Below are positions 17,365-35,916 of a stretch of 35,916 nt of DNA, in pieces. The notes beneath the pieces are model-generated. The model saw nothing but the letters and a program-made list of their open reading frames with translations, was not told where the DNA came from and searched no databases. Location: NCBI GenBank assembly GCA_020050835.1, contig JAGVKB010000064.1, positions 1 through 35,916 of the forward strand, read 5' to 3'. Every line of letters starts with the position of its first letter. The first letter of the stretch is position 1. Source of the stretch: Candidatus Obscuribacterales bacterium (GTDB lineage: Bacteria > Cyanobacteriota > Vampirovibrionia > Obscuribacterales > Obscuribacteraceae). The position numbers and the translations under genes were made by a program.

Positions 17365-19785
17365 ATGATGAATCACCGAAGCTCAATACTGTCCGTAGCG
17401 CTGGCGTTTTCAGTCTGCCAGGCGGTGTGGTCCTTGGAGCGATCTGAAAAGGTCTTCGGCAGAGCTCTGACCTTGGTCGAGCACCCGGTACTGTTGCTTG
17501 CCGAGCGGCGGGATGAACAGCCGGTAAAGCTTGCAGAGGCAGCCGCTGCCAGTCCAGGGGAGAGCGAAGCCGAGGAGTCCGCGGAAAAAAAGTCTCAAGC
17601 GCCTGGTGAATTGAGCTTGCCCGAGATAGTCAATAAAGCGGTCCTGGCCTACGGTGGCAAGCCGGCGCTCGAGAAGCTGGATGGCCACTGCGTTTTCAAC
17701 GGGCGGCAGAAGGTTGCCGGTCAGGAGGGAGGAAGCCTGCCCGAGATGAGCTTTCAGCAGATTCGTAAGGGTGCGAAGCTGAGGATTGATCTGCAGAGCG
17801 CCGGTCAGGGCGGCTCGTCTTCTACGACCGTATTTGATGGCAGGCTCGGGTGGAAATCCGGTGGACGGTGGGTATCGGACCTGCCGGCCGAAGCGGTGAA
17901 GGTCTTGAAGGAAGATCGGGATCGTCAGCCATTTGTATTTGCGCATTTTGAAGATCCGGCCTATGCCTTTCGTCTGGTCGGCCGGACGAATTACCGGCAC
18001 GTTCCGGTTTATGCTGTTTCTGTGCGGCATGGTGCCAACAGCGAGACGACCTTTTTTCTCGATCAATCAAATTTCCTGGCGATCGGATCCAGTTACAGTC
18101 GCAGCGACGCTGATACGAAAGCGGTTGCCACCGTCGACACCGACTATTACGAGTATCGTCCGGTTGACGGTGCAATGGTGCCTTTCAGGCAAGTGCAATC
18201 GGTCAACGGTAAAGAGTCGCTCGTGCTGCAACTGGAAAATGCTCAGCTGGCCCGTTCAATCGATGACGCTCTGTTCAAGCGGCCCCAGGATGGTGGCGCT
18301 GTCAGACTAGCGCGGATAGTGCCGGTGCCGATTGAATACACTCAAGGCGAACTTTTGGTGAAGGTGCGAGTCAACAACGGCGAGCCGCTCGACTTCTTGC
18401 TGGACACCGGCGCCAGCGAGACGATGGTGGATCGCCGGACTGCTGCCGAGCACTTTCTAGACAAACAAGGACAGGTGGAAATCTCAGGCGCCTCGGGCGA
18501 AGTAACGACCAATGCTACGGTTGTTCGTAAACTGGAATTGGGAAATCTGGCCCTTGAAGATGTGCACGCCTTGATGCTCGACCTGAGCCCGCAGTCCCGG
18601 CAGATGGGCAGGAGGATAGCCGGGATCATCGGCTCGAACGTGCTTTCACAGTTTTCGGTTACTTTTGACTTCCAGAAGCAAGTGGTGACCTTTCAAGATG
18701 CGGGCAGCTACCAACCGGCGAGCGGTTCGCAGTCGGTGCCGTTTACGCAAAGACCGGGTTTGATGGTCAAAGCGATTATCAACGGTCGAGCGGAGGAGAC
18801 TTTCCTGTTAGATACCGGAGCAGCTTTCAACCACCTGCCGGCGGCGGTGGCAAAAAAGTATCGGCAGGCAGAACCGCAACATCTTACGGAAGGCACCGGC
18901 CTTGATGGCAGACCGGTGCGTTTGGGCACACTGGTGGCCGAGGCTGTGACGGTCGGAAAGCTGACTGTGCCGAAAGTCAATTTTACTTATCCGGTCGAGG
19001 GTGATGATGCTCAGGGGCGGGGGGGCTTCTTCCAAACTTCGGCCGTGGGTATTCTCGGCAATCCCTTCTGGCAAAGTTTTATCATGACGATTGACTATCG
19101 GGCTCAGCGGCTGGTTCTACAGCCGATTGCCGCACGGAGGTCCGGCGAGAGTGCCAATCAATCACTTGCAGCCGGCGACTCCAAGTTGATTCTTTACCGC
19201 GACTATCGGGCTGCTGAGATGTATTACCAGAAAGCGCTGGCCTCGGCTCTAGCGGCCGGGGAAAAGAAGGTGGAAGCGCGTGCTCTTGGTAGGCTCGGGG
19301 CGCTTCATCGCGTGCTGGCTCATGACTTGAATCGACCGGAACAAGCCAAAGTTGCCTATCAGTATTTCAACCGGGCTCAGCAACTCGCCAGAAAAATCGG
19401 TGATCGAGAAGGGGAGGGGCGGGTGCTAGCGGATTGGAGCCTGCTTTACAGCGACAACGGGCAAGCGTTGGAAGCCGCTCGCACCATCGAGTCGGCCCTG
19501 CTGATTGCTCCCAACGATCCTTATGTAAATGTGGATAATGCTGTTCATCTCTACCGCGCCCGGTTGTTCGGCGACATGCAAAAGTACGTCGACAAGACGC
19601 TCTTTCTCGATCCATCCAATTGGCAGGCGCTCTGGTATCAAGTCAAACTGGCCGAGATGTTTTCGGATCAGCCCAAGCAAGTCGCCACCCTCAAGGAGAT
19701 CTTGAGATTTTATCCATGGTCGAAGTTGGCGCGGGAGAAGTCGGCGACGCTTCTGGCACCAGCAGCGGTGCCGGCTGTGAAATGA
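17365..19785 (+). CDS. Exported protein: LolA-like region + two aspartyl protease domains + TPRs
   Basis: An 806-residue protein with an N-terminal signal peptide (to about residue 24). Residues about 80-308 have the look of a LolA/LolB-type outer-membrane lipoprotein-sorting fold (YGGKPALEKLDGHCVFNG start, SFQQIRKGAKLRIDL, TTVFDGRLGWKSGG, DALFKRP end), as seen in other exported peptidases. Two retropepsin-like aspartyl protease domains follow: LDFLLDTGASETMVD (DTG 347-349) and ETFLLDTGAAFNHL (DTG 483-485), each followed by its hydrophobic-hydrophobic-Gly element (IAGIIGSNVL and AVGILGNPFW). Both catalytic Asp are kept, so an intramolecular dimer like pepsin is possible. Residues about 600-800 are helical TPR-type repeats (AEMYYQKALASALAAGEKK, RALGRLGALHRVLA, NRAQQLARKIGDREGEGR). 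ATG at 17365 or 17368; weak RBS. Substrate unknown. Confidence 0.75.
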   Translation: MMNHRSSILSVALAFSVCQAVWSLERSEKVFGRALTLVEHPVLLLAERRDEQPVKLAEAAAASPGESEAEESAEKKSQAPGELSLPEIVNKAVLAYGGKPALEKLDGHCVFNGRQKVAGQEGGSLPEMSFQQIRKGAKLRIDLQSAGQGGSSSTTVFDGRLGWKSGGRWVSDLPAEAVKVLKEDRDRQPFVFAHFEDPAYAFRLVGRTNYRHVPVYAVSVRHGANSETTFFLDQSNFLAIGSSYSRSDADTKAVATVDTDYYEYRPVDGAMVPFRQVQSVNGKESLVLQLENAQLARSIDDALFKRPQDGGAVRLARIVPVPIEYTQGELLVKVRVNNGEPLDFLLDTGASETMVDRRTAAEHFLDKQGQVEISGASGEVTTNATVVRKLELGNLALEDVHALMLDLSPQSRQMGRRIAGIIGSNVLSQFSVTFDFQKQVVTFQDAGSYQPASGSQSVPFTQRPGLMVKAIINGRAEETFLLDTGAAFNHLPAAVAKKYRQAEPQHLTEGTGLDGRPVRLGTLVAEAVTVGKLTVPKVNFTYPVEGDDAQGRGGFFQTSAVGILGNPFWQSFIMTIDYRAQRLVLQPIAARRSGESANQSLAAGDSKLILYRDYRAAEMYYQKALASALAAGEKKVEARALGRLGALHRVLAHDLNRPEQAKVAYQYFNRAQQLARKIGDREGEGRVLADWSLLYSDNGQALEAARTIESALLIAPNDPYVNVDNAVHLYRARLFGDMQKYVDKTLFLDPSNWQALWYQVKLAEMFSDQPKQVATLKEILRFYPWSKLAREKSATLLAPAAVPAVK

Positions 19786-26583: not shown

Positions 26584-28383
26584 ATGTATGTCAATCTGAC
26601 TAATTCCGGTTTTTTCAAGCTCTTTCAACAGATCGAGCAGGTAATTAGACGAAGCTCCGAGATCGGGCCGCTGCTCAAGAATTTGGTCGAAGTGGTCGGC
26701 TGGCATTTTGGCCTCGACCGCTGCGTGGTGATGCTCTTGGAGCTCGAAAGGCAAGAACTGAAAGTGGCTGCCGAGTTTCACGAAGAATCTCTGAAGGCTC
26801 TCGTCGGGGGCCGATACCAGTTATCAACCAACTCTGAGTGGCATAGGCTGCTTGTTCAGGGCAAGCCGCTGCTACTCAAAGACATCAGCCTGCAAGCCGG
26901 AGAGCCGGGCGCATTGCCGGAGCTGGAACAGTTCTTTTCGGACAGTCAAAGCAAGTCTTTGGTAGCCTTTCCACTGGTTAATGCCGGCCAGTTGATCGGT
27001 ACCCTCTCCGTGCATTATTGTCGTGAAGCGACCGGTTTCTCCGAAGATTTCCTGGCGTTCGGTGAATCGCTTGCGGTAGAGCTGGCGCAAGGAATAGACC
27101 AATTGCGCCTGTTCAAAGAGAGAGACTTGGAAAGCCGGGTCTTTCGAGAAGCCAATCTCCCGATGCTGGTGCTTGATGTTACGACCTGCCAGATTCTACA
27201 GGCAAACACTGCTGCATTGAAGTTCCTCAATACGACGGGCCGGTCGCTCGACCGGTTGTCATTCCTAGATTTTATGGGCGGTTCAGACGGCGCAAGGATT
27301 CAGGAGTCTTACCGGCGATTGCTGGCCGGTGAAACGGCTGTGCGTCTGGACGGGCTAGTGTTGCGCAGTGCCGATGGCGAGCCGCAGCATCTGGACGCCT
27401 GCCTGAGCTTGATTCACTCTGGTGCGCAGGGAAGTTTACTGGTGGTACTTTTGCCTGGTTTGTTCGGACAGCCAGAGCGAGACTTGGAGCGAACTGCCGA
27501 CGGCAAGGGCGGATCGAAGGTGGAAGAGCTGCTGGCTGCGATGACCAGGCAACTTCATTGGGAGCGAACTGCCAGGCAATTAGCTGTATCTCTAAGCTCG
27601 AAGCTGGACCGCGATGCTATCCTGCAATCTGCAGTCGATCTGCTCGGGCGAGCAGTTGGCGCCAGTCGAGCCTTGATCGTAAAAACGGAAGGACCGGCAT
27701 CGCCGATGGTTACTCATGAGTTTGCCGTGCCGGATATCTCGCCGCTGGGGCTGGGACGAACCAGCCAATTCCCGGCATCGGCGGTCAACTGTTTCCGAAG
27801 CAAGAGCGCGGCCTGGTCCGATATCTCGGCTGGCGTCGCGTCGCTGGAGACCACGCCCGGGGACCTTCACCAGTTAGTGGAAAGTGGTGTAGTCGGTATG
27901 TGCGGCTGTCCGGTCGGTCACCATGGGCAGTACCAAGGCTTGATACTGGTGTTGCAAACTGACAGCGCTCGTCATTGGTCGGCTTACGAAATTGATCTGC
28001 TGGAGACGGTAGCGAACCAGATGGCTATTTCGCTCGTCCACGCGCATGCCTACTCCCAGATCAAAGATCAACTCTTCAATATGAATCTGATCGGAAATCT
28101 TACCCAGCAGCTCACAAACGCGCTGGACCTTGCATCGAGGCAAGCAAGATCGGATGGACCTCCGGAGTCAGTCAAGCAGTCTGGCGGTTTGCCACCGTTG
28201 TCGTCTCGAGAGCTCGAGGTGTTGAGATTGATCGCTTCCGGGTTGGCGAACCGTGAGATTGCGCAGCGACTGTTTCTAACCGAGTCTACTGTTGAGCTGC
28301 ACGCGTCACGGATCAGAAAGAAGCTCAAATTGAAGAGCCGAACCGCGCTCGTAAAATATGCCTGTGACAATCATCTGGTCTGA
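26584..28383 (+). CDS. GAF-PAS-GAF sensory protein with C-terminal LuxR-type HTH
   Basis: A 599-residue one-component regulator. Residues about 25-175 form a GAF domain (VVGWHFGLDRCVVMLLEL, SLVAFPLVNAGQLIGTLSVHY). About 185-310 resemble a PAS domain (ANLPMLVLDVTTCQILQANTAALKFLNTTGR). About 335-505 form a second GAF domain (LDRDAILQSAVDLLGRAVGASRALIV, VGHHGQYQGLILVLQTD, WSAYEIDLLETVANQMAISLVHA). Residues about 545-598 are a canonical LuxR/GerE HTH: LSSRELEVLRLIASGLANREIAQRL followed by the recognition helix TESTVELHASRIRKKL. It has no transmembrane segment, so it would sense a small molecule or redox/light signal in the cytoplasm and bind DNA directly. Several Cys occur in GAF2 (VGMCGCPVG). 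ATG at 26584, weak GAG upstream. Targets unknown. Confidence 0.88.
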   Translation: MYVNLTNSGFFKLFQQIEQVIRRSSEIGPLLKNLVEVVGWHFGLDRCVVMLLELERQELKVAAEFHEESLKALVGGRYQLSTNSEWHRLLVQGKPLLLKDISLQAGEPGALPELEQFFSDSQSKSLVAFPLVNAGQLIGTLSVHYCREATGFSEDFLAFGESLAVELAQGIDQLRLFKERDLESRVFREANLPMLVLDVTTCQILQANTAALKFLNTTGRSLDRLSFLDFMGGSDGARIQESYRRLLAGETAVRLDGLVLRSADGEPQHLDACLSLIHSGAQGSLLVVLLPGLFGQPERDLERTADGKGGSKVEELLAAMTRQLHWERTARQLAVSLSSKLDRDAILQSAVDLLGRAVGASRALIVKTEGPASPMVTHEFAVPDISPLGLGRTSQFPASAVNCFRSKSAAWSDISAGVASLETTPGDLHQLVESGVVGMCGCPVGHHGQYQGLILVLQTDSARHWSAYEIDLLETVANQMAISLVHAHAYSQIKDQLFNMNLIGNLTQQLTNALDLASRQARSDGPPESVKQSGGLPPLSSRELEVLRLIASGLANREIAQRLFLTESTVELHASRIRKKLKLKSRTALVKYACDNHLV

Positions 28384-28395
28384 GCACTCTGCTCT

Positions 28396-29700
28396 TTAGA
28401 GTCTTCCCCGCGCTTTGATCTCCAGATATCTGTCCACCAGCTTGTCTGACAGCTCTTGGGGCGGACAATCCAGGACCAGGCATCCACGTCTCACCAGCAC
28501 CGATAGTGCCAACTCCCGCTGCGAGATTAAATCGGTAGCTACCGCCTTTCGATAGATCTGCCCGGCCGAAATCGAACGGACGGAGGCGATGCCGTCCAGC
28601 TGTCTATCTTTAAGCGTGACGCAAAACGGTAAGTGACGTGGCGAGAGGCTGGCCAAGCCTGTAAGCAGAGTTTGAGAGCCGGCTGGATCGGTCAGATCGG
28701 TTAACACGACCATGAGTGAACGACCCTTTTGTGCTGCTGCAAAATAGGAAAGACAGCCTACGTAGTCCGGCTCCACCATTGCTGGCTTGACGTCGAAGGA
28801 GGACTCCAGCAGGCGCTTCAGGTGACCTTTGCCGCGCCTTGGCGGCAGATAAAGGCGCGGTTTGTCAGCGAAGATGCCCAGCCCAACTTGATCGTTGCGG
28901 CTTAGTCCGGCCAGCGCCAGCGCCAGGGCAGAGTTGAGCGCATGGTCGAAGCGGCTCAATCCTTCCAGGTCAGAGACCATCATGCGGCCGGCGTCGATTA
29001 ATATCAAGAGATTTTGCTCCTGCTCGGCTTCGTAGAGGCGTACCACCGGTCGATCTTGGCGAGCCGTTCCTTTCCAGTCGATGCTACGGCTGTCGTCTCC
29101 AACCGTATACTCCTTGAGTGAAGCGAAATCAGTGCCACGACCTCTGCGGCGTTGGTGCATCTCACCAAGCTCGGACGAACAGGACAACTTGATGGATAGC
29201 TCCTGCAGCGCTTTCAAATCGCTGAATACTTTTACTTCACATTCTGCTTTTATACGAGCCGCTCGCCAGAACAACCCAAAAAAGCTGAGATAGCGCACGT
29301 GAATGTCGCCAAATTTGTACAAACCACGCGACCTGGGGGTGAGCAGATAATGAAGGTTGGCTTTGCTTGCCGGTGGCAATGCCAGGACAAATTCGGTCGA
29401 ATCGGACTCGATCGTTTGCGGAGAGTCGTCTCGCACCACACACTGGAGAGCTGACCCACCGTGGTTCTCCAGCGATAGGTCAACCTGGTTGACACGTCCG
29501 ATCGACAGGCGGTCTGACAGAACTCGTTTACCGGACAAGCGGTGCGTGCGCTGTGTTAGCCGGTAGTCGGCCAGCACTGCCAGGGCAAGGGTTAGGTCGT
29601 AGATCAGCCCAACTGTTCGGCCGCCGGTCCACCACCAGGAGATGAAGAAAGGAACCATCGCCAGGGTCAAAAGGAGGTAGAGCAGGCGGCTGGCTATCAT
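28396..29700 (-). CDS. DUF58 domain protein of the MoxR operon
   Basis: A 434-residue DUF58 protein. Two hydrophobic helices at about 5-24 and 28-46 anchor it. The family hallmark RRRGRGTDFASLKEYTVGDDSRSIDWKGTARQDRPVVRLYEAEQEQ lies at about 184-229. It is followed by a von Willebrand A-like fold starting LLILIDAGRMM, where the usual DxSxS metal site is reduced to DAGRM, a form common in DUF58. Members partner with MoxR AAA+ ATPases, which are thought to act as chaperones or remodelling factors. It starts 1 bp after the MoxR stop, so the two are coupled, and it is the last gene of the five-gene operon. It converges on the LuxR-type gene with 12 bp between stops. Confidence 0.92.
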   Translation of the reverse strand: MIASRLLYLLLTLAMVPFFISWWWTGGRTVGLIYDLTLALAVLADYRLTQRTHRLSGKRVLSDRLSIGRVNQVDLSLENHGGSALQCVVRDDSPQTIESDSTEFVLALPPASKANLHYLLTPRSRGLYKFGDIHVRYLSFFGLFWRAARIKAECEVKVFSDLKALQELSIKLSCSSELGEMHQRRRGRGTDFASLKEYTVGDDSRSIDWKGTARQDRPVVRLYEAEQEQNLLILIDAGRMMVSDLEGLSRFDHALNSALALALAGLSRNDQVGLGIFADKPRLYLPPRRGKGHLKRLLESSFDVKPAMVEPDYVGCLSYFAAAQKGRSLMVVLTDLTDPAGSQTLLTGLASLSPRHLPFCVTLKDRQLDGIASVRSISAGQIYRKAVATDLISQRELALSVLVRRGCLVLDCPPQELSDKLVDRYLEIKARGRL

Positions 29701-29701
29701 G

Positions 29702-30649
29702 TCATCGCGGGACCGGAATTTGGGCCAAAAGATTGGAGATCAGCTGGCTGACCGTCACTCCGTCGAGCTCAGCTTCCGGTGTCAAGATCAGTCGATGTCT
29801 TAAGACTGGCAGAGCGACAAATTTGACATTGTCTGGCGTGACGAAGTCTCTGCCTTCGATCGCGGCGTGGGCTTTGGCCGCAGCCAGCCAATTGAGTGCG
29901 GCCCTGGGGCTGGCTCCCAGCTGTAAGTCGGATAATGTGCGCGATTTGGTGACTATTTGCGCCAGGTAATCAAAGATGCTTTGCTCGACGCTTATCTCCT
30001 TCAACTCCTGCCGGCAAGCCAACACTTCTGCCTGGCTGGCAGTCGGTTCAACTATGTTGCTTTTGCGATCGTAAAGCCCGTCTTGCCAGTTGGATAACAT
30101 CTTCTTCTCAGCATCTAGGTTGGGATAATCAATCAAGATCTTGAGCATGAAGCGATCCAATTGAGCCTCAGGTAGCGGATAAGTGCCTTCGAACTCAATT
30201 GGATTTTGCGTTGCCACCACCATGAACAGATCCGAAAGCCTCTCCGTCTTGCCGTCGAGTGTAACTTGATTCTCTTCCATCGCCTCCAAAAGAGCGGACT
30301 GTGTCTTGGGTGGCGTGCGGTTGATTTCGTCGGCCAGGAGTAAGCTGGTAAAGATCGGGCCTTTCTTGAGGCTGAAACTCTTGGTCGTCAGGTCGTAGAC
30401 GCTATTGCCGAGGATGTCCGAGGGCAACATGTCCGGGGTGAGTTGAATCCGGCCAAATTCGGTGCCGATCAAGCTGGCTAACGTCTTTACTAAAAGTGTC
30501 TTGGCTGTGCCGGGAACTCCCTCCAAGAGCACGTGTCCACCAGCAAGCAGAGAGATGAAGAGCTGATCGATCACCTGCTCTTGACCGACGATTATGCTGT
30601 TAATCGTCTCGCGTAGTTTGGAAAAGGTCTCGACTACTCTTTGCGGCAT
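29702..30649 (-). CDS. MoxR-family AAA+ ATPase
   Basis: A 315-residue MoxR ATPase. Motifs: Walker A GVPGTAKT (44-51), Walker B LLLADE (103-108) followed by INRTPPKTQSALLEAMEE, sensor 1 ATQNP (146-150), and PLPEAQLDRFMLK (158-170) with the arginine finger region. The C-terminal lid domain (about 205-315) has the GASPRAALNW sensor 2 element. MoxR proteins remodel or mature partner proteins, usually one with a VWA domain, here the adjacent DUF58 protein. The gene lies between DUF4350 (3-bp gap) and DUF58 (1-bp gap). GGGAGG occurs about 15 nt before the ATG, inside the DUF4350 end, so coupled translation is more likely than independent initiation. Confidence 0.95.
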   Translation of the reverse strand: MPQRVVETFSKLRETINSIIVGQEQVIDQLFISLLAGGHVLLEGVPGTAKTLLVKTLASLIGTEFGRIQLTPDMLPSDILGNSVYDLTTKSFSLKKGPIFTSLLLADEINRTPPKTQSALLEAMEENQVTLDGKTERLSDLFMVVATQNPIEFEGTYPLPEAQLDRFMLKILIDYPNLDAEKKMLSNWQDGLYDRKSNIVEPTASQAEVLACRQELKEISVEQSIFDYLAQIVTKSRTLSDLQLGASPRAALNWLAAAKAHAAIEGRDFVTPDNVKFVALPVLRHRLILTPEAELDGVTVSQLISNLLAQIPVPR

Positions 30650-30652
30650 GGC

Positions 30653-31936
30653 TTACTGTGGCTTGCCTCCCTTGGTTGCAAACAGCACTCTCGATTGCTC
30701 TGTTATCTTATCGCAGGCGGAAACGAGAGCGATCAGCTCTTCCTCAGTCAAATGTTTCTTTGCAAGCGCTGCCGTCGAGCTGGCCAAGTAGTCCCTGAAT
30801 TCGTTGGCTGCTCCGCCAGTCGCTTCAACCCACGCTTCGACCAGTCTTTCGTCCTGTTCGTGCGACGAAATGGCCAGGGCCTTGCAGAGTCGGGCTCGAA
30901 AGGAGTGGTTCAGAACATCGAAGGCGAGATCGGCAGCCTTCGCTCGCCGAAAGGTGTTAGCCAGGCCGTTGATGAACTCAAGACTCGACAACCTTCGACC
31001 GGCAGCTACGGTTTTAACCGCACCGAAATGCTGAGCGGTACTCCCAAGAGCAACGGCAAGAATAAGCAGCATTTGCAGGAACAACATGCCGGCCGGTCCG
31101 CGTCCAAGGTAAACGAAGACATTGCCGGCTTGAGAATAACCATGACAGATTTCGTCGAACAGAACGTCACCATCAGTGGTGCTAAACAGGTTGACCAGGA
31201 ATTGCAGATTTGGCCACTCGCTTTCGTCGCTTAAGTGTCTATTGGCCCCCAATGCCGGCACCACGCCCAGCAAAATCTTGCCCTTGCCGTGTTCAAGTTC
31301 GGCAATCAGGCATCCGGAGCTGTCTTTGAGCAGGGCGGTGCCGCCTTCTATGCGTGTATCTGAATTCACGGTGAGGGATGGAACAAAGGCGAATGCAGGG
31401 TCCGTGCTGCTGATGGACATCCGTCTGTCGGAGACGGCGTCCGTCTCGGTGATGCGTGCGCCTACCCGGTTTACTATCTTGCGGCTGAAGGAATAACTGA
31501 AGCTGTCCAGGTACATCAGTTTATTGCCGGCAGCCACCCAGGATAGCAGTTGGTCAAGCTCGAAATCTTGCAATGATTCGCCGGGAGAGATTACAATCAG
31601 CATGCCTTTGGTGTTGCGCAGGTGCCTGTAGGGCAACTGCCAGCGCCGGCAGCTGATTCCGACTCTATGGGCTAGCTCGAAGAGACCGCTGTAGCCGCTT
31701 GGCTTGGGGTTGAAGGTGGACGTCAGCGTGGTTGACTCGGGAAGAAAGCGAGCCGATTCGTCTTCGAATTTCGTTCCGGCTGTTACCAGAGCGATGCTCA
31801 CCGCTACGAAGGCCGCCAGCTGCCACCAAATCTGGTGCTGTTTGCCAGGCGGGAGCCAGCTGCCGCCACCGAACGAAGCGCTGCCGCTCGGTTCGGAAAG
31901 CAAAGATGGGGGCGCTTCAGCCTCGGCAGCCTGCAT
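30653..31936 (-). CDS. DUF4350 domain membrane protein
   Basis: A 427-residue protein typical of MoxR operons. The first 36 residues are hydrophilic, a transmembrane helix spans about 38-54 (WWQLAAFVAVSIALVTA), and the outside domain begins with STFNPKPSGYSGLFELAHRVGISCRRW, the DUF4350 signature, and has a Rossmann/GATase-like feel (GMLIVISPGES, GKGKILLGVVPALGAN). A second transmembrane helix lies near 285-300 (LFLQMLLILAVALGS), and the last 120 residues are helical and cytoplasmic. Function is unknown; in other operons these proteins are encoded with DUF4129, MoxR and DUF58. ATG at 31936, with AAGGAG 10 nt upstream, 1 bp after the DUF4129 stop (TAG). Confidence 0.82.
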   Translation of the reverse strand: MQAAEAEAPPSLLSEPSGSASFGGGSWLPPGKQHQIWWQLAAFVAVSIALVTAGTKFEDESARFLPESTTLTSTFNPKPSGYSGLFELAHRVGISCRRWQLPYRHLRNTKGMLIVISPGESLQDFELDQLLSWVAAGNKLMYLDSFSYSFSRKIVNRVGARITETDAVSDRRMSISSTDPAFAFVPSLTVNSDTRIEGGTALLKDSSGCLIAELEHGKGKILLGVVPALGANRHLSDESEWPNLQFLVNLFSTTDGDVLFDEICHGYSQAGNVFVYLGRGPAGMLFLQMLLILAVALGSTAQHFGAVKTVAAGRRLSSLEFINGLANTFRRAKAADLAFDVLNHSFRARLCKALAISSHEQDERLVEAWVEATGGAANEFRDYLASSTAALAKKHLTEEELIALVSACDKITEQSRVLFATKGGKPQ

Positions 31937-31937
31937 C

Positions 31938-32642
31938 CTAATCTCGCTCCTTGAAGTCTGCCGGCTCTGTTCTGAGACCGGACTTTGATTCGCTTGCGCC
32001 GGTGGCGGTAGGTGTCACAAGCGCCACTTCGGACTGAAGGTCTTTCAGTGCCGTTAGGCAGAGCTTGTAATCGTTCTGGCTGGCCGGCTGGCTGCCGAAC
32101 CAGATCGCTTCAACCGGATTGACGAGGGTGCGGAAGCGTCTTTGCAGAGATGAATGTTTAGCCAGCGCATGCCAATATTCATAGTTGGTGCGGGTCGGTA
32201 CGAATTCAGAGATGCCGCGCTCATGTAGCAGTTGGAGAAATGACAAGTAAAGTGCGCGGCAAGCTTCACGCCATTTAGAGGCGGTGGCCAGTTGCTCGGC
32301 TTCCTTTTGCCAGCCGCTGGAATCGAGCACCCTGGTGATGCTCGATACATGCTTTCTTGAGCCTTCGCTCTGTTTCTTGAGCTGGCTCAGTCGAGCCCAA
32401 AGCAAGGCAAGGCAGATGACGGCGCCAGCAATTCCGGCGCCATAGAGCAACCATTGCATGACACTGCTTGCCGCGCTGGAGTCGGCTAATCCGGGCACTT
32501 TGATGTGAATTGTTCCGAAGAGATCATTGAGCCAGCGCAAGCCCTGGCCGATCAGATCTTGCATTTTGACTAAGAGCTCGGGTGGATTGTGATACCGGTA
32601 AGACCGGGCTACAACTGCTATGTCGGCGCTGATCTCTTTCAC
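31938..32642 (-). CDS. DUF4129 domain protein
   Basis: A 234-residue protein with one transmembrane helix at about 62-83 (MQWLLYGAGIAGAVICLALLWA), and a C-terminal helical DUF4129-type domain with the family pattern ACRALYLSFLQLLHERGISEF, TNYEYWHAL and AIWFGS at about 135-205. I place the start at GTG 32642, not at the upstream in-frame start at 32750. AGGA lies 7 nt before the GTG, and GTGA overlaps the stop of the preceding gene, a sign of coupled translation; the longer frame would lie inside that gene. The role is unknown, but DUF4129, DUF4350, MoxR and DUF58 are a common group in bacterial operons. Confidence 0.8.
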   Translation of the reverse strand: MKEISADIAVVARSYRYHNPPELLVKMQDLIGQGLRWLNDLFGTIHIKVPGLADSSAASSVMQWLLYGAGIAGAVICLALLWARLSQLKKQSEGSRKHVSSITRVLDSSGWQKEAEQLATASKWREACRALYLSFLQLLHERGISEFVPTRTNYEYWHALAKHSSLQRRFRTLVNPVEAIWFGSQPASQNDYKLCLTALKDLQSEVALVTPTATGASESKSGLRTEPADFKERD

Positions 32643-33574
32643 AAGGACTTCCTCTCGAGAACGTCGAGCGCTCGCCGAATATCCAAGCCTTCCTGTCTTA
32701 AGCGCAGATCGTGATAAAAGAGTCCAAAGGCCATGAATGCTACCGGCCATAGCAGCATGTTAATCAAAGATTCCCAGACGTGTGAAAGGACCATCAGGTA
32801 AAGAGGCATCTGGTAGGCGTCATACTCGACGGAGCTGTTCAGTCCATGCTGGTACATGTCAAAGGCCGATGCAGCCACCAACGGCAGCGAAAGCGGGATG
32901 GTAATGAAAGCGACAGTGGCATAGAGCAGGAGTCCAAACGCAATCGTGCGCCAGAAGTCGCCGAATGTAAGTGAAAATCCGCGATTGATGACGGTGCTAA
33001 CTCGCTGATCTTCACAGGCGAATACGGCAAATGTGATAAACGAGATAAGGACGATGAGCAAGATGCTGGCTGCAATTCCCAGCGGTGCTACCAAAATTCC
33101 GACCGAGGCCAGCAGAGTGTCGGCGGCGCTGCCTTTGGCCAATTGGGTTGCGAACACCAGCTCGACCGTCCAGACCCCCACCGCCAGAACCGATACTCCA
33201 AAAATTCCGAAGCAGAGCAAAAGGACGCGCCACTTACGCTTGCTCAACCAGATGTGCGCGGTTGCATAATTGTGATCGAATCCGGCTGCCATCCGCACCA
33301 GGGCTAGCTGCCTGACCGTCAGGATCCACTTGGCGATCATCACGACGATAATACTGACGCCTATTACGGCATATGGCAAAGGGTCGTTGCGGACGGCTGT
33401 ACTCTCCATCAATCTGGAGATATAGAACTGGATACCTAAAGCGCCTAAGGCTGCCACTATGGTCGGACCCATCAAGGTTCGAAAGAGCAAGTTGAAATGG
33501 CTGCGATAAAGACGGAAGGAGCGACCGATAAGGTCGCCCACTGATTGAGGTTTGGCGGGTGGATCGTCAAACAA
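32639..33574 (-). CDS. Multi-pass membrane protein, first gene of the MoxR operon
   Basis: A 311-residue integral membrane protein with about six hydrophobic segments: near 33-52 (LMGPTIVAALGALGIQFYIS), 68-88, 115-137 (VLLLCFGIFGVSVLAVGVW), 155-190, 212-235 (IAFGLLLYATVAFITIPLSL) and 262-285. Before the first helix is VGDLIGRSFRLYRSHFNLLFR, and the C-terminal tail ends RRALDVLERKSL. The pattern recalls glycerophosphoryl-diester-phosphodiesterase-type membrane domains found in MoxR operons, but I cannot assign the family. The TTG start has GGAG 8 nt upstream. Its TGA overlaps the DUF4129 GTG. It likely anchors the MoxR/DUF58 machine or the exported partners. Confidence 0.75.
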   Translation of the reverse strand: MFDDPPAKPQSVGDLIGRSFRLYRSHFNLLFRTLMGPTIVAALGALGIQFYISRLMESTAVRNDPLPYAVIGVSIIVVMIAKWILTVRQLALVRMAAGFDHNYATAHIWLSKRKWRVLLLCFGIFGVSVLAVGVWTVELVFATQLAKGSAADTLLASVGILVAPLGIAASILLIVLISFITFAVFACEDQRVSTVINRGFSLTFGDFWRTIAFGLLLYATVAFITIPLSLPLVAASAFDMYQHGLNSSVEYDAYQMPLYLMVLSHVWESLINMLLWPVAFMAFGLFYHDLRLRQEGLDIRRALDVLERKSL

Positions 33575-33834
33575 ATGGAAATCTCCGGCGTATCAATTTT
33601 GGAATACCCAGCTTTAACCTGCTTACATCGGAGGTCAAGAAATTATTGATTCGACCGGCAAGTGGTCGAAAGAGGGAGAGTCTTAGCCGGCGCTTCAGCC
33701 GGGCTTCGCTTTCCATGACAATTGGCTGGCCAGTTTAAGGAGAGATTTGGGCCGGCTCACAAGATAGACTTTGATAGACCGCCCGGTGCGCCGGAGCGGG
33801 CACAGCGCAGGTAAGGAGCGGGGAGCGGAAAATT

Positions 33835-34335
33835 ATGGATGCGAAAGGAAGGTTCAGTCTACCCCAGCATTTTACGGCCAGTGCGGTTGTGATCGCCAAC
33901 GACCATATCTTGCTCGTGCACCATCGGCGGATCGCCGCCTGGCTTCCACCAGGCGGGCATATCGAAGAGAAGGAGATGCCGCATGAAGCAGCGGTTCGTG
34001 AAGTCTACGAGGAAACCGGCGTCGCCGTGGAGGTTCTGTCTGAGCCTCTGCCGGAGACAGGTGATCCGGAAGCGTTCTTCCTGCCGGCTCCGCTTTGCTT
34101 CCAGGGCGTGAAGGCGGTAGAAAGAGGAGTCGAGCTCTATCATCTCGACCTCGCTTATCTTTGCCGACCGGCGAGAGGAGTTTATGCTTCCGGTTCAGAG
34201 TTGCCTGCGCTATCTTCCGGACCGGACGTCAAGGAAGCTTGCTGGGTTAAGCTCAGCGAGTTGAGCCGCTGGAATTTGGCTAAAAATGTCACAGAAATTG
34301 TGGCGACTGCAAAGACTCGCCTGGACTTTAAGTAA
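33835..34335 (+). CDS. Nudix hydrolase family protein
   Basis: A 166-residue Nudix protein. The Nudix box GX5EX7REUXEEXGU is complete: G41 HIEEK E47 MPHEAAV R55 E56 V Y E59 E60 T G62 V. Preceding strands TASAVVIANDHILLVHHRRIAAWLPPGG fit the fold. The family hydrolyses a nucleoside diphosphate linked to another moiety; the substrate is not set by visible motifs. It is about 30 residues longer than a minimal member, between the box and the C-terminus (EAFFLPAPLCFQG). ATG at 33835 is preceded by GGAG about 10 nt away. It stands alone and ends at an intrinsic terminator. Confidence 0.9.
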   Translation: MDAKGRFSLPQHFTASAVVIANDHILLVHHRRIAAWLPPGGHIEEKEMPHEAAVREVYEETGVAVEVLSEPLPETGDPEAFFLPAPLCFQGVKAVERGVELYHLDLAYLCRPARGVYASGSELPALSSGPDVKEACWVKLSELSRWNLAKNVTEIVATAKTRLDFK

Positions 34336-34383: not shown

Positions 34384-34411
34384 TCGGGCAATGCCCGAGC
34401 AGGTTTTTTTT
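34384..34411 (+). terminator. Intrinsic terminator after the Nudix gene
   Basis: TCGGGC-AAT-GCCCGA forms a GC-rich 6-bp stem with a 3-nt loop at 34384-34398; eight T follow at 34404-34411 after five bases. It lies about 50 nt after the Nudix stop. The T-run is slightly displaced but the pattern fits. Confidence 0.65.
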
Positions 34412-34505: not shown

Positions 34506-35048
34506 ATGACAAGCGCCCTGGTTCAACAATTAACGGGAGTTCGGGATCTCAAGAAGATTCTGGAGACAACAGTAAAGGAGCTCGGAGAGACTTTTCGAGC
34601 CGATGTCTGCCAGGTGATGCTCAGCAACCCGCTCGATCCCAACGTGATCGCCATCTGCGACTACCGCGCCGCTGCCGATCAAGAGAGTCCAAGTGATCTG
34701 CCGACAGTTACCTTGCCACTTTCGCTGGAAGGGAAGTCCTTCGGGCACATCCGGCTGGCTCGCACCGAAGCGGTCAGCTCCGATGAGGTCAACAATATCC
34801 GGGTCATTCTCGGCGAGATGGGAGACATCATCCGGCACGCCCAGATTAATGACATCGTGCAGCGAGACACGTTCCGAGACACCTTCCTGGTTGAGATCGG
34901 CAACGTCATGGCTTACTCGCTCGGTATCGGCGATGCGCTGTTCATGGTTGTGAACATTTTGGGCAAAGTGCTTCATGCCAGCCGTTGCATCTTTATCTGT
35001 ACAGACGATACACACGCCGGCTGGAAGTGCTACGAGTACTGGCAGTAG
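34506..35048 (+). CDS. Tandem-GAF protein, upstream part ending at in-frame TAG
   Basis: 180 residues followed by TAG. Residues about 1-115 form a first GAF domain (LKKILETTVKELGETFRADVCQVML, ICDYRAA, TLPLSLEGKSFGHIRLART). Residues from about 120 begin a second one (FLVEIGNVMAYSLGIGDALFMVVNILGKVLHASRCIFICTDD), which stops after GWKCYEYWQ, in the middle of the fold. Past the TAG at 35046-35048 the same frame stays open for 289 codons and gives the missing half of GAF2 (see the next CDS). So this is the 5' piece of a gene that was, or still is, one unit. The ATG at 34506 has no strong Shine-Dalgarno. Possible causes are nonsense mutation, sequencing error, readthrough or restart. A lone 180-residue product would have a broken GAF2. 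Confidence 0.78.
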   Translation: MTSALVQQLTGVRDLKKILETTVKELGETFRADVCQVMLSNPLDPNVIAICDYRAAADQESPSDLPTVTLPLSLEGKSFGHIRLARTEAVSSDEVNNIRVILGEMGDIIRHAQINDIVQRDTFRDTFLVEIGNVMAYSLGIGDALFMVVNILGKVLHASRCIFICTDDTHAGWKCYEYWQ

Positions 35049-35057
35049 GACAAAGTG
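35046..35057 (+). other. In-frame amber codon with overlapping restart signals
   Basis: TAG (35046-35048) interrupts the second GAF domain. AGGA (35047-35050) overlaps this stop, and an in-frame GTG follows at 35055-35057 after four bases. A ribosome that stops at the TAG would thus be placed next to a possible restart codon in the same frame. TAG ends several complete genes in this window (sufB, sufC, pyk, the first SRPBCC gene), so it is not a general sense codon here. Confidence 0.55.
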
Positions 35058-35916
35058 CAGAGTTGCCAATCCTACTGTTGGCCCACGACGGACTCGCCGG
35101 TGGTGGCCCAAACTCTTCTTTCGACCGCTCCGCTCATGGCTTATGAAGGGCAATCGAACTCGTATTCGACTCCCTTGCAAGAAGAGATGCAGTTGATCGA
35201 CGCGCGCTCCCTTCTGGGCGTCCCCTTGCGAAGCGAGCAGGGCACGCATGGATGCGTCATTCTCCAGCAATGTGACTATCGTCGAGCCTGGACGCGTGGC
35301 GAGCTCGATATGGTGCAAAACGTCGCCGACAAGGTGGCCGAAGCGATCATCAAGCTGCCAGCTGAGAAGAAAGCGCGCGAGCCGATTATGCAGCTGCACC
35401 AGCGAACGGTCAGCATACCGGCAGGCGAACAAGAGAAGCAAAGCATTCAGTCCGTCCGTCGAGCGCTGAAAGGGGCGCTCGGCCAACAATCAATTCCGGT
35501 GGCGCAAAAGACATCGATGCCTCCGCCTCCGCCTCCGCCCAAGCCGGTTACCGCTCCGCCACTGCCGGTTATTCAGCCTCCACCCGAAGCAGCGCAGATG
35601 ATGCCGCCGCCGCCACCGGGTGCCGTCGGGCATGCACCGCAGGTGGTGCTTGATGGCGGTGATTTGACTGCCGCTCCGCCTGCCGCTCCGCCTGCACCAC
35701 ATGCAGTGCCGAGCGGAAGCAGCGAAAACTTCTCTCCGCCTGGTGCGGAGCCGCATCCGGCCGCTGCGGGCAAGGGCCTTGGCGGTATCCTCGGCGGAAT
35801 CAAGCAGGGTTCGGGTGCCACGACGATGGCGTCCCTGGATTTTGGCGCCCCGAGCGCGCCGGAAATGCCACCGCCGGTGCTGTCGCCCGTGCCGCCAGCT
35901 GACGCCTGGAGCGAGC
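35055..35916 (+). CDS. Tandem-GAF protein, downstream part, 3' truncated by window edge
   Basis: Continues in the same frame as the upstream CDS and is open to the last base. The first part is the C-terminal half of a GAF domain: WPTTDSPVVAQTLLS, then DARSLLGVPLRSEQGTHGCVILQQCD, and WTRGELDMVQNVADKVAEAI, the standard closing strand pair and helix. Residues from about 35518 onward are Pro-rich (MPPPPPPPKP, PPPEAAQMMPPPPPG), then Gly/Ala/Pro-rich to the end. GTG at 35055, with AGGA four bases upstream, is the first start-like codon after the TAG; ATGs downstream at 35133-35160 would cut into the GAF core. By domain logic it is the second half of the preceding gene. The frame's end, and thus any output domain, is outside the window. 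Confidence 0.7.
   Translation, partial: MQSCQSYCWPTTDSPVVAQTLLSTAPLMAYEGQSNSYSTPLQEEMQLIDARSLLGVPLRSEQGTHGCVILQQCDYRRAWTRGELDMVQNVADKVAEAIIKLPAEKKAREPIMQLHQRTVSIPAGEQEKQSIQSVRRALKGALGQQSIPVAQKTSMPPPPPPPKPVTAPPLPVIQPPPEAAQMMPPPPPGAVGHAPQVVLDGGDLTAAPPAAPPAPHAVPSGSSENFSPPGAEPHPAAAGKGLGGILGGIKQGSGATTMASLDFGAPSAPEMPPPVLSPVPPADAWSE

Follow-up and report, generated by a model that had tools for sequence, protein, structure and literature searches.

We found that a gene for a predicted signalling protein, located at the end of the window (the whole analysed stretch of DNA, 35,916 nucleotides), is interrupted in frame by an amber codon, at residue 181, which was probably made by a recent nonsense mutation, possibly restricted to the sampled strain. 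In support of the mutation, the stop is an isolated lesion of this genome, and the gene otherwise appears conserved, with no second lesion found in it. Indeed, among the alternatives raised in the original prediction, a recent nonsense mutation and a base-call error fit best, since this is the only one of the 45 family copies of the gene to have a stop, and the stop stands as its sole lesion. The case looks like an ordinary nonsense mutation or a sequence error and not like a new way of making proteins, and alone it has little significance, being a single nonsense codon that interrupts a gene otherwise well kept, in the draft genome of one uncultured bacterium from the environment. The host belongs to Candidatus Obscuribacterales, non-photosynthetic Cyanobacteriota, and relatives of the gene were detected in the same family and order as well as in named Candidatus Obscuribacterales/Melainabacteria records. 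The genome is a draft assembly of 154 contigs, 95.7% complete, with an estimated contamination of 4.1%.

Architecture and context of the interrupted gene

The frame opened by ATG at 34506 comprises 180 codons and is closed by TAG at 35046-35048, as read off the sequence, and beyond this stop 289 further codons stay open in the same frame to the contig end, just as predicted. Pfam detected a partial GAF domain on each side of the TAG, and when the stop was read through, a single GAF domain containing one TAG was obtained at 34935-35348, confirming that the amber codon lies within GAF2 of a tandem-GAF gene. Furthermore, the read-through frame aligned with an uninterrupted orthologue without gaps (83% identity over 304 codons), and the orthologue alignment contained many invariant residues on both sides of the stop, in agreement with the original prediction that both sides evolved as one protein. 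The features of the gene are collected in Table 1.

Table 1. Positions of the parts of the interrupted gene and of the elements around its stop codon
Feature	Position	Strand	Description
Pre-stop part	34506..35045	+	GAF1 and N-terminal part of GAF2, 180 codons
In-frame TAG	35046..35048	+	Residue 181, occupied in 35 orthologues by Gln (30) or Arg (5); in the model, the loop that follows GAF2 strand 173-179
AGGA and GTG	35047..35057	+	AGGA (35047-35050) and GTG (35055-35057), supposed restart signal; by-product of conserved codons
Same-frame continuation	35049..35916	+	Remainder of GAF2 and beginning of Pro/Ala-rich linker, truncated by contig end
HD-GYP part of same gene	G000:C103:24113-24808	-	HD_5 match, collinearity in G017

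In the intact relatives, the gene consists of one frame, mostly of about 720-1020 codons, encoding two GAF domains (GAF1 and GAF2), then a Pro/Ala-rich linker and finally an HD domain that carries HD and GYP motifs. GAF2 was recognised by Pfam in these relatives, while GAF1 fell below the Pfam cut-off. Modelling of residues 1-300 (mean pLDDT 79, pTM 0.59) gave a pair of GAF folds connected by a long helix, and the structural matches of this model in the PDB were tandem-GAF and GAF-PHY proteins; the Pfam match, the modelled folds and the structural matches together point to a tandem-GAF arrangement of the N-terminal part. The end of the window at 35916 is the end of contig C125, and the HD-GYP half, which was out of reach of the original prediction, was located at the end of contig C103, where HD_5 scores 111 bits and the translation contains the motifs HDVGK and HHEEYDGNGYP. 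This part shares 79% identity over 232 residues with the sister genome G017, and its frame is open to the contig edge. Contig C135 of G017 unites the counterparts of the C125 genes, the full-length gene and the counterparts of the C103 genes in one collinear run, so the present gene is whole except for its stop and a gap of the assembly within the linker. The predicted product is thus a signalling protein with the order GAF1-GAF2-Pro/Ala-rich linker-HD-GYP.

PmGH is described as an HD-GYP domain phosphodiesterase with an N-terminal GAF domain (PMC4159591), and the present protein resembles it in combining GAF-type sensing with an output domain of the HD-GYP type. Unlike PmGH as described there, it has two GAF domains, a long Pro/Ala-rich linker and an in-frame stop, and its phosphodiesterase activity is putative.

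Directly upstream of the gene, at 28396-34335, lie genes for a MoxR-type ATPase, DUF58, DUF4350 and DUF4129 proteins, together with a NUDIX gene. Most of the relatives examined have the MoxR/DUF58/DUF4350/DUF4129 part in this position, and about half have the NUDIX gene there, but in G017, the nearest relative, no such block was detected next to the gene. A breakage of the gene by an upstream insertion was rejected, because most relatives retain the MoxR/DUF58/NUDIX block and it is the sister genome that lacks it. A terminator-like hairpin (34384-34398), matching on both strands, separates the NUDIX gene from the GAF-HD-GYP gene. Another GAF protein, with two GAF stretches and a LuxR-type helix-turn-helix, is encoded at 26584-28383, and its counterpart in G017 is directly upstream of the GAF-HD-GYP gene. 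Further upstream, at 17365-19785, an 806-residue protein combines two stretches of the retroviral aspartyl protease type with a weak match to TPR.

Orthologues and the origin of the amber codon

The gene was detected in 45 of 50 family genomes, with one match each, including all 21 high-quality genomes; in this set, the genome studied here is the sole member of its genus. This distribution is the more useful by-product of the analysis, since it makes the GAF-GAF-HD-GYP gene of this uncultured family a candidate for the core signalling genes of the Obscuribacterales. The matched stretch was free of stops in 44 of the 45 copies, and the single TAG occurred in this genome only; none of the relatives carries the gene in split form. 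At codon 181, 30 of 35 orthologues have Gln, encoded by CAG or CAA, and the other 5 have Arg. Since this codon is mostly CAG or CAA in the relatives, a single transition suffices to give TAG. The stop is confined to one lineage (1 of 45 family copies) and the orthologues are uninterrupted, as would be expected of a recent nonsense mutation in a nascent pseudogene.

Under a recent nonsense mutation, one substitution, most simply C to T in the Gln codon, would have created the in-frame amber codon 181. Translation would then terminate at residue 180 to leave GAF1 with a fragment of GAF2, and the full-length product would be lost or strongly reduced. At most, some HD-GYP-bearing fragment might be made from chance internal starts, and such a leftover fragment is plausible by analogy.

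The lesion stood alone in every comparison made. Across 153 genes aligned with the sister genome (53,632 aligned residues), this TAG was the only internal stop with high identity to either side of it, and the other 17 stops fell in regions of poor alignment or at, or close to, the ends of alignments; the same comparison gave one frameshift-like case. Among 199 ABC, GAF and response-regulator matches, this one alone contained a stop, and neither the remaining 289 codons of the gene on C125 nor its 413 on C103 showed a second one. As for selection after the stop, only 1 of 34 invariant sites was broken. Relative-rate counts replaced dN/dS, because synonymous sites were saturated even against the nearest relative. 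The derived amino-acid changes in this genome versus the sister were 6 versus 10 before the stop, 9 versus 5 after it and 8 versus 12 in HD-GYP; the difference between the pre- and post-stop parts gave a Fisher p of 0.27, with numbers so small that a brief constraint-free period or a very recent mutation would not register. A significant relaxation of constraint after the stop was thus not detected, as would fit a recent origin of the TAG, a sequence error or bypass.

The main rival to a recent mutation is a consensus error of the assembly, arising from a wrong base call, low coverage 870 bases from the contig end or mixed strains, in which case the true gene would be uninterrupted. We consider this possible but rather unlikely. 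It accords with a stop seen in a single genome, with a draft of many contigs and some estimated contamination, and with a gene otherwise undamaged and near-universal in the family. However, the base-level accuracy looks good, as the 153 genes contained no other convincing internal stop and only the one frameshift-like case. In-frame stops are known within conserved bacterial genes, including an alternation of CAG and TAG in a Paenibacillus family (Belinky et al. 2021, PMC7918605), and the present case is similar in that TAG takes the place of CAG within a conserved gene that still seems constrained on both flanks. The published cases are common to at least two genomes, and that work drops in-frame stops of single genomes for possible sequencing errors; since the present stop occurs in one genome only, error has to be weighed here. 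Two further points count against the favoured reading of a recent nonsense mutation: loss should be disfavoured for a gene present in all high-quality family genomes, and the missing decay after the stop is equally expected under error or bypass.

Possible restart or readthrough at the stop

The original prediction had also placed a restart signal on top of the stop, by which a second chain, starting at GTG 35055 or a later start, would carry the remainder of GAF2 together with the linker and HD-GYP, and would pair with the first chain or act alone. The motif itself does exist, as AGGA overlaps the stop and is followed by the in-frame GTG, but its association with the stop did not hold. The AGGA and GTG arise from the codons for a conserved Gln-Asp/Glu-Lys-Val, and 6 of 30 uninterrupted relatives (L032, L034, L050, L052, L055 and L060) carry them at the same place; moreover, some such motif is near 3% of all CAG codons. 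The four-base spacing is enriched before first ATGs (3.2%, against 0.8% at internal starts), whereas the commonest spacing in this genome is longer, at 7-10. In addition, the break would cut the modelled GAF2 sheet in two, and no relative has a split gene with which the signal could be conserved. A restart signal as a selected feature was thus rejected because of its presence in uninterrupted relatives, although AGGA and GTG could still operate by accident.

Some precedent for a second chain comes from Shigella flexneri, in which nonsense codons before the GGDEF catalytic domain of diguanylate cyclase genes need not abolish activity, and several products fit multiple or internal start codons (PMC11327459). 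As in those genes, a second-messenger enzyme gene has a nonsense codon in its sensor part with the output domain intact downstream; unlike them, the output domain here is HD-GYP, and the Shigella genes were resequenced and experimentally tested, whereas the present case is known from sequence. If the stop is real and the protein is still made, the gene would offer a natural test case for the tolerance of nonsense codons in signalling enzymes. On balance, we regard a termination-restart split as highly unlikely.

Readthrough, in which an amino acid would be inserted at TAG often enough to give the full-length protein from a leaky regulatory codon, is less likely still. It would fit the constraint that seems to persist after the stop, and the CAG/TAG alternation noted above (PMC7918605) provides a parallel, but the decoding apparatus argues against it. 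RF1 was detected over its cut-off with 500 bits, and TAG terminates 274 of 889 long ORFs (31%) in a count covering about 1.5 of 7.0 Mb. The search for suppressor tRNA and pyl genes found no CUA anticodon among the 47 listed tRNAs, and ARAGORN, run on most of the remaining stretches, added solely a tRNA-Sec with UCA, again without CUA; since the general tRNA search had missed this tRNA-Sec, an odd suppressor tRNA could be overlooked, and the search covered a genome of 95.7% completeness. Pyrrolysine coding was rejected, as the best PylS match reached 23.6 bits against a cut-off of 178, and so was selenocysteine at codon 181, as the tRNA-Sec has UCA and reads UGA. No other conserved gene interrupted by TAG was found by the sister-gene comparison, the domain matches or the dicodon scan. 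Genome-wide reassignment of TAG, which had not seemed indicated from the window, was accordingly rejected on the grounds of RF1, the use of TAG, the lack of a detected CUA tRNA and the lack of another convincing interrupted gene.

The surroundings of stop codons gave a similar answer. For TAG, 17 cases of coding-like continuation stood against 417 ORF ends, compared with 28 against 452 for TAA and 12 against 449 for TGA, so that there was no excess after TAG. These figures come from the dicodon scan, which was used only for counts per stop type and whose filters omitted the TAG at 35046-35048, as had a first codon-usage scan that was too strict to recover it. Folding of the RNA 3' of the stop was no better than that of shuffled sequences (z 0.09), by which a downstream hairpin driving recoding was rejected, and the stop was seen in no second genome. 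Taken jointly, a functional split and readthrough appear improbable. We likewise think it very unlikely that the amber codon has been maintained for a use, be it as a leaky stop setting the level of the full sensor or as a termination-restart split by which GAF2 would consist of two chains and HD-GYP would be freed from GAF1.

The genome also encodes selenocysteine machinery, comprising the tRNA-Sec with UCA (L163:12026-12121, on G000:C100) and selA (G000:C2:15630-16970, 556 bits); a tRNA-Sec match over the cut-off was obtained in 39 of the 50 family genomes. Besides this normal gene, a second tRNA-Sec-like gene is located at L109:9710-9809 on the minus strand (about G000:C17:124709-124808), with an Rfam tRNA-Sec score of 54.9 bits (cut-off 47), and this genome is the only one of the 50 with two matches over the cut-off. 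The second gene has a GCA (Cys) anticodon, a U before the encoded CCA and a long variable arm, and it resembles the selC*-type tRNA-Cys that has been reviewed from other phyla (PMC7609411).
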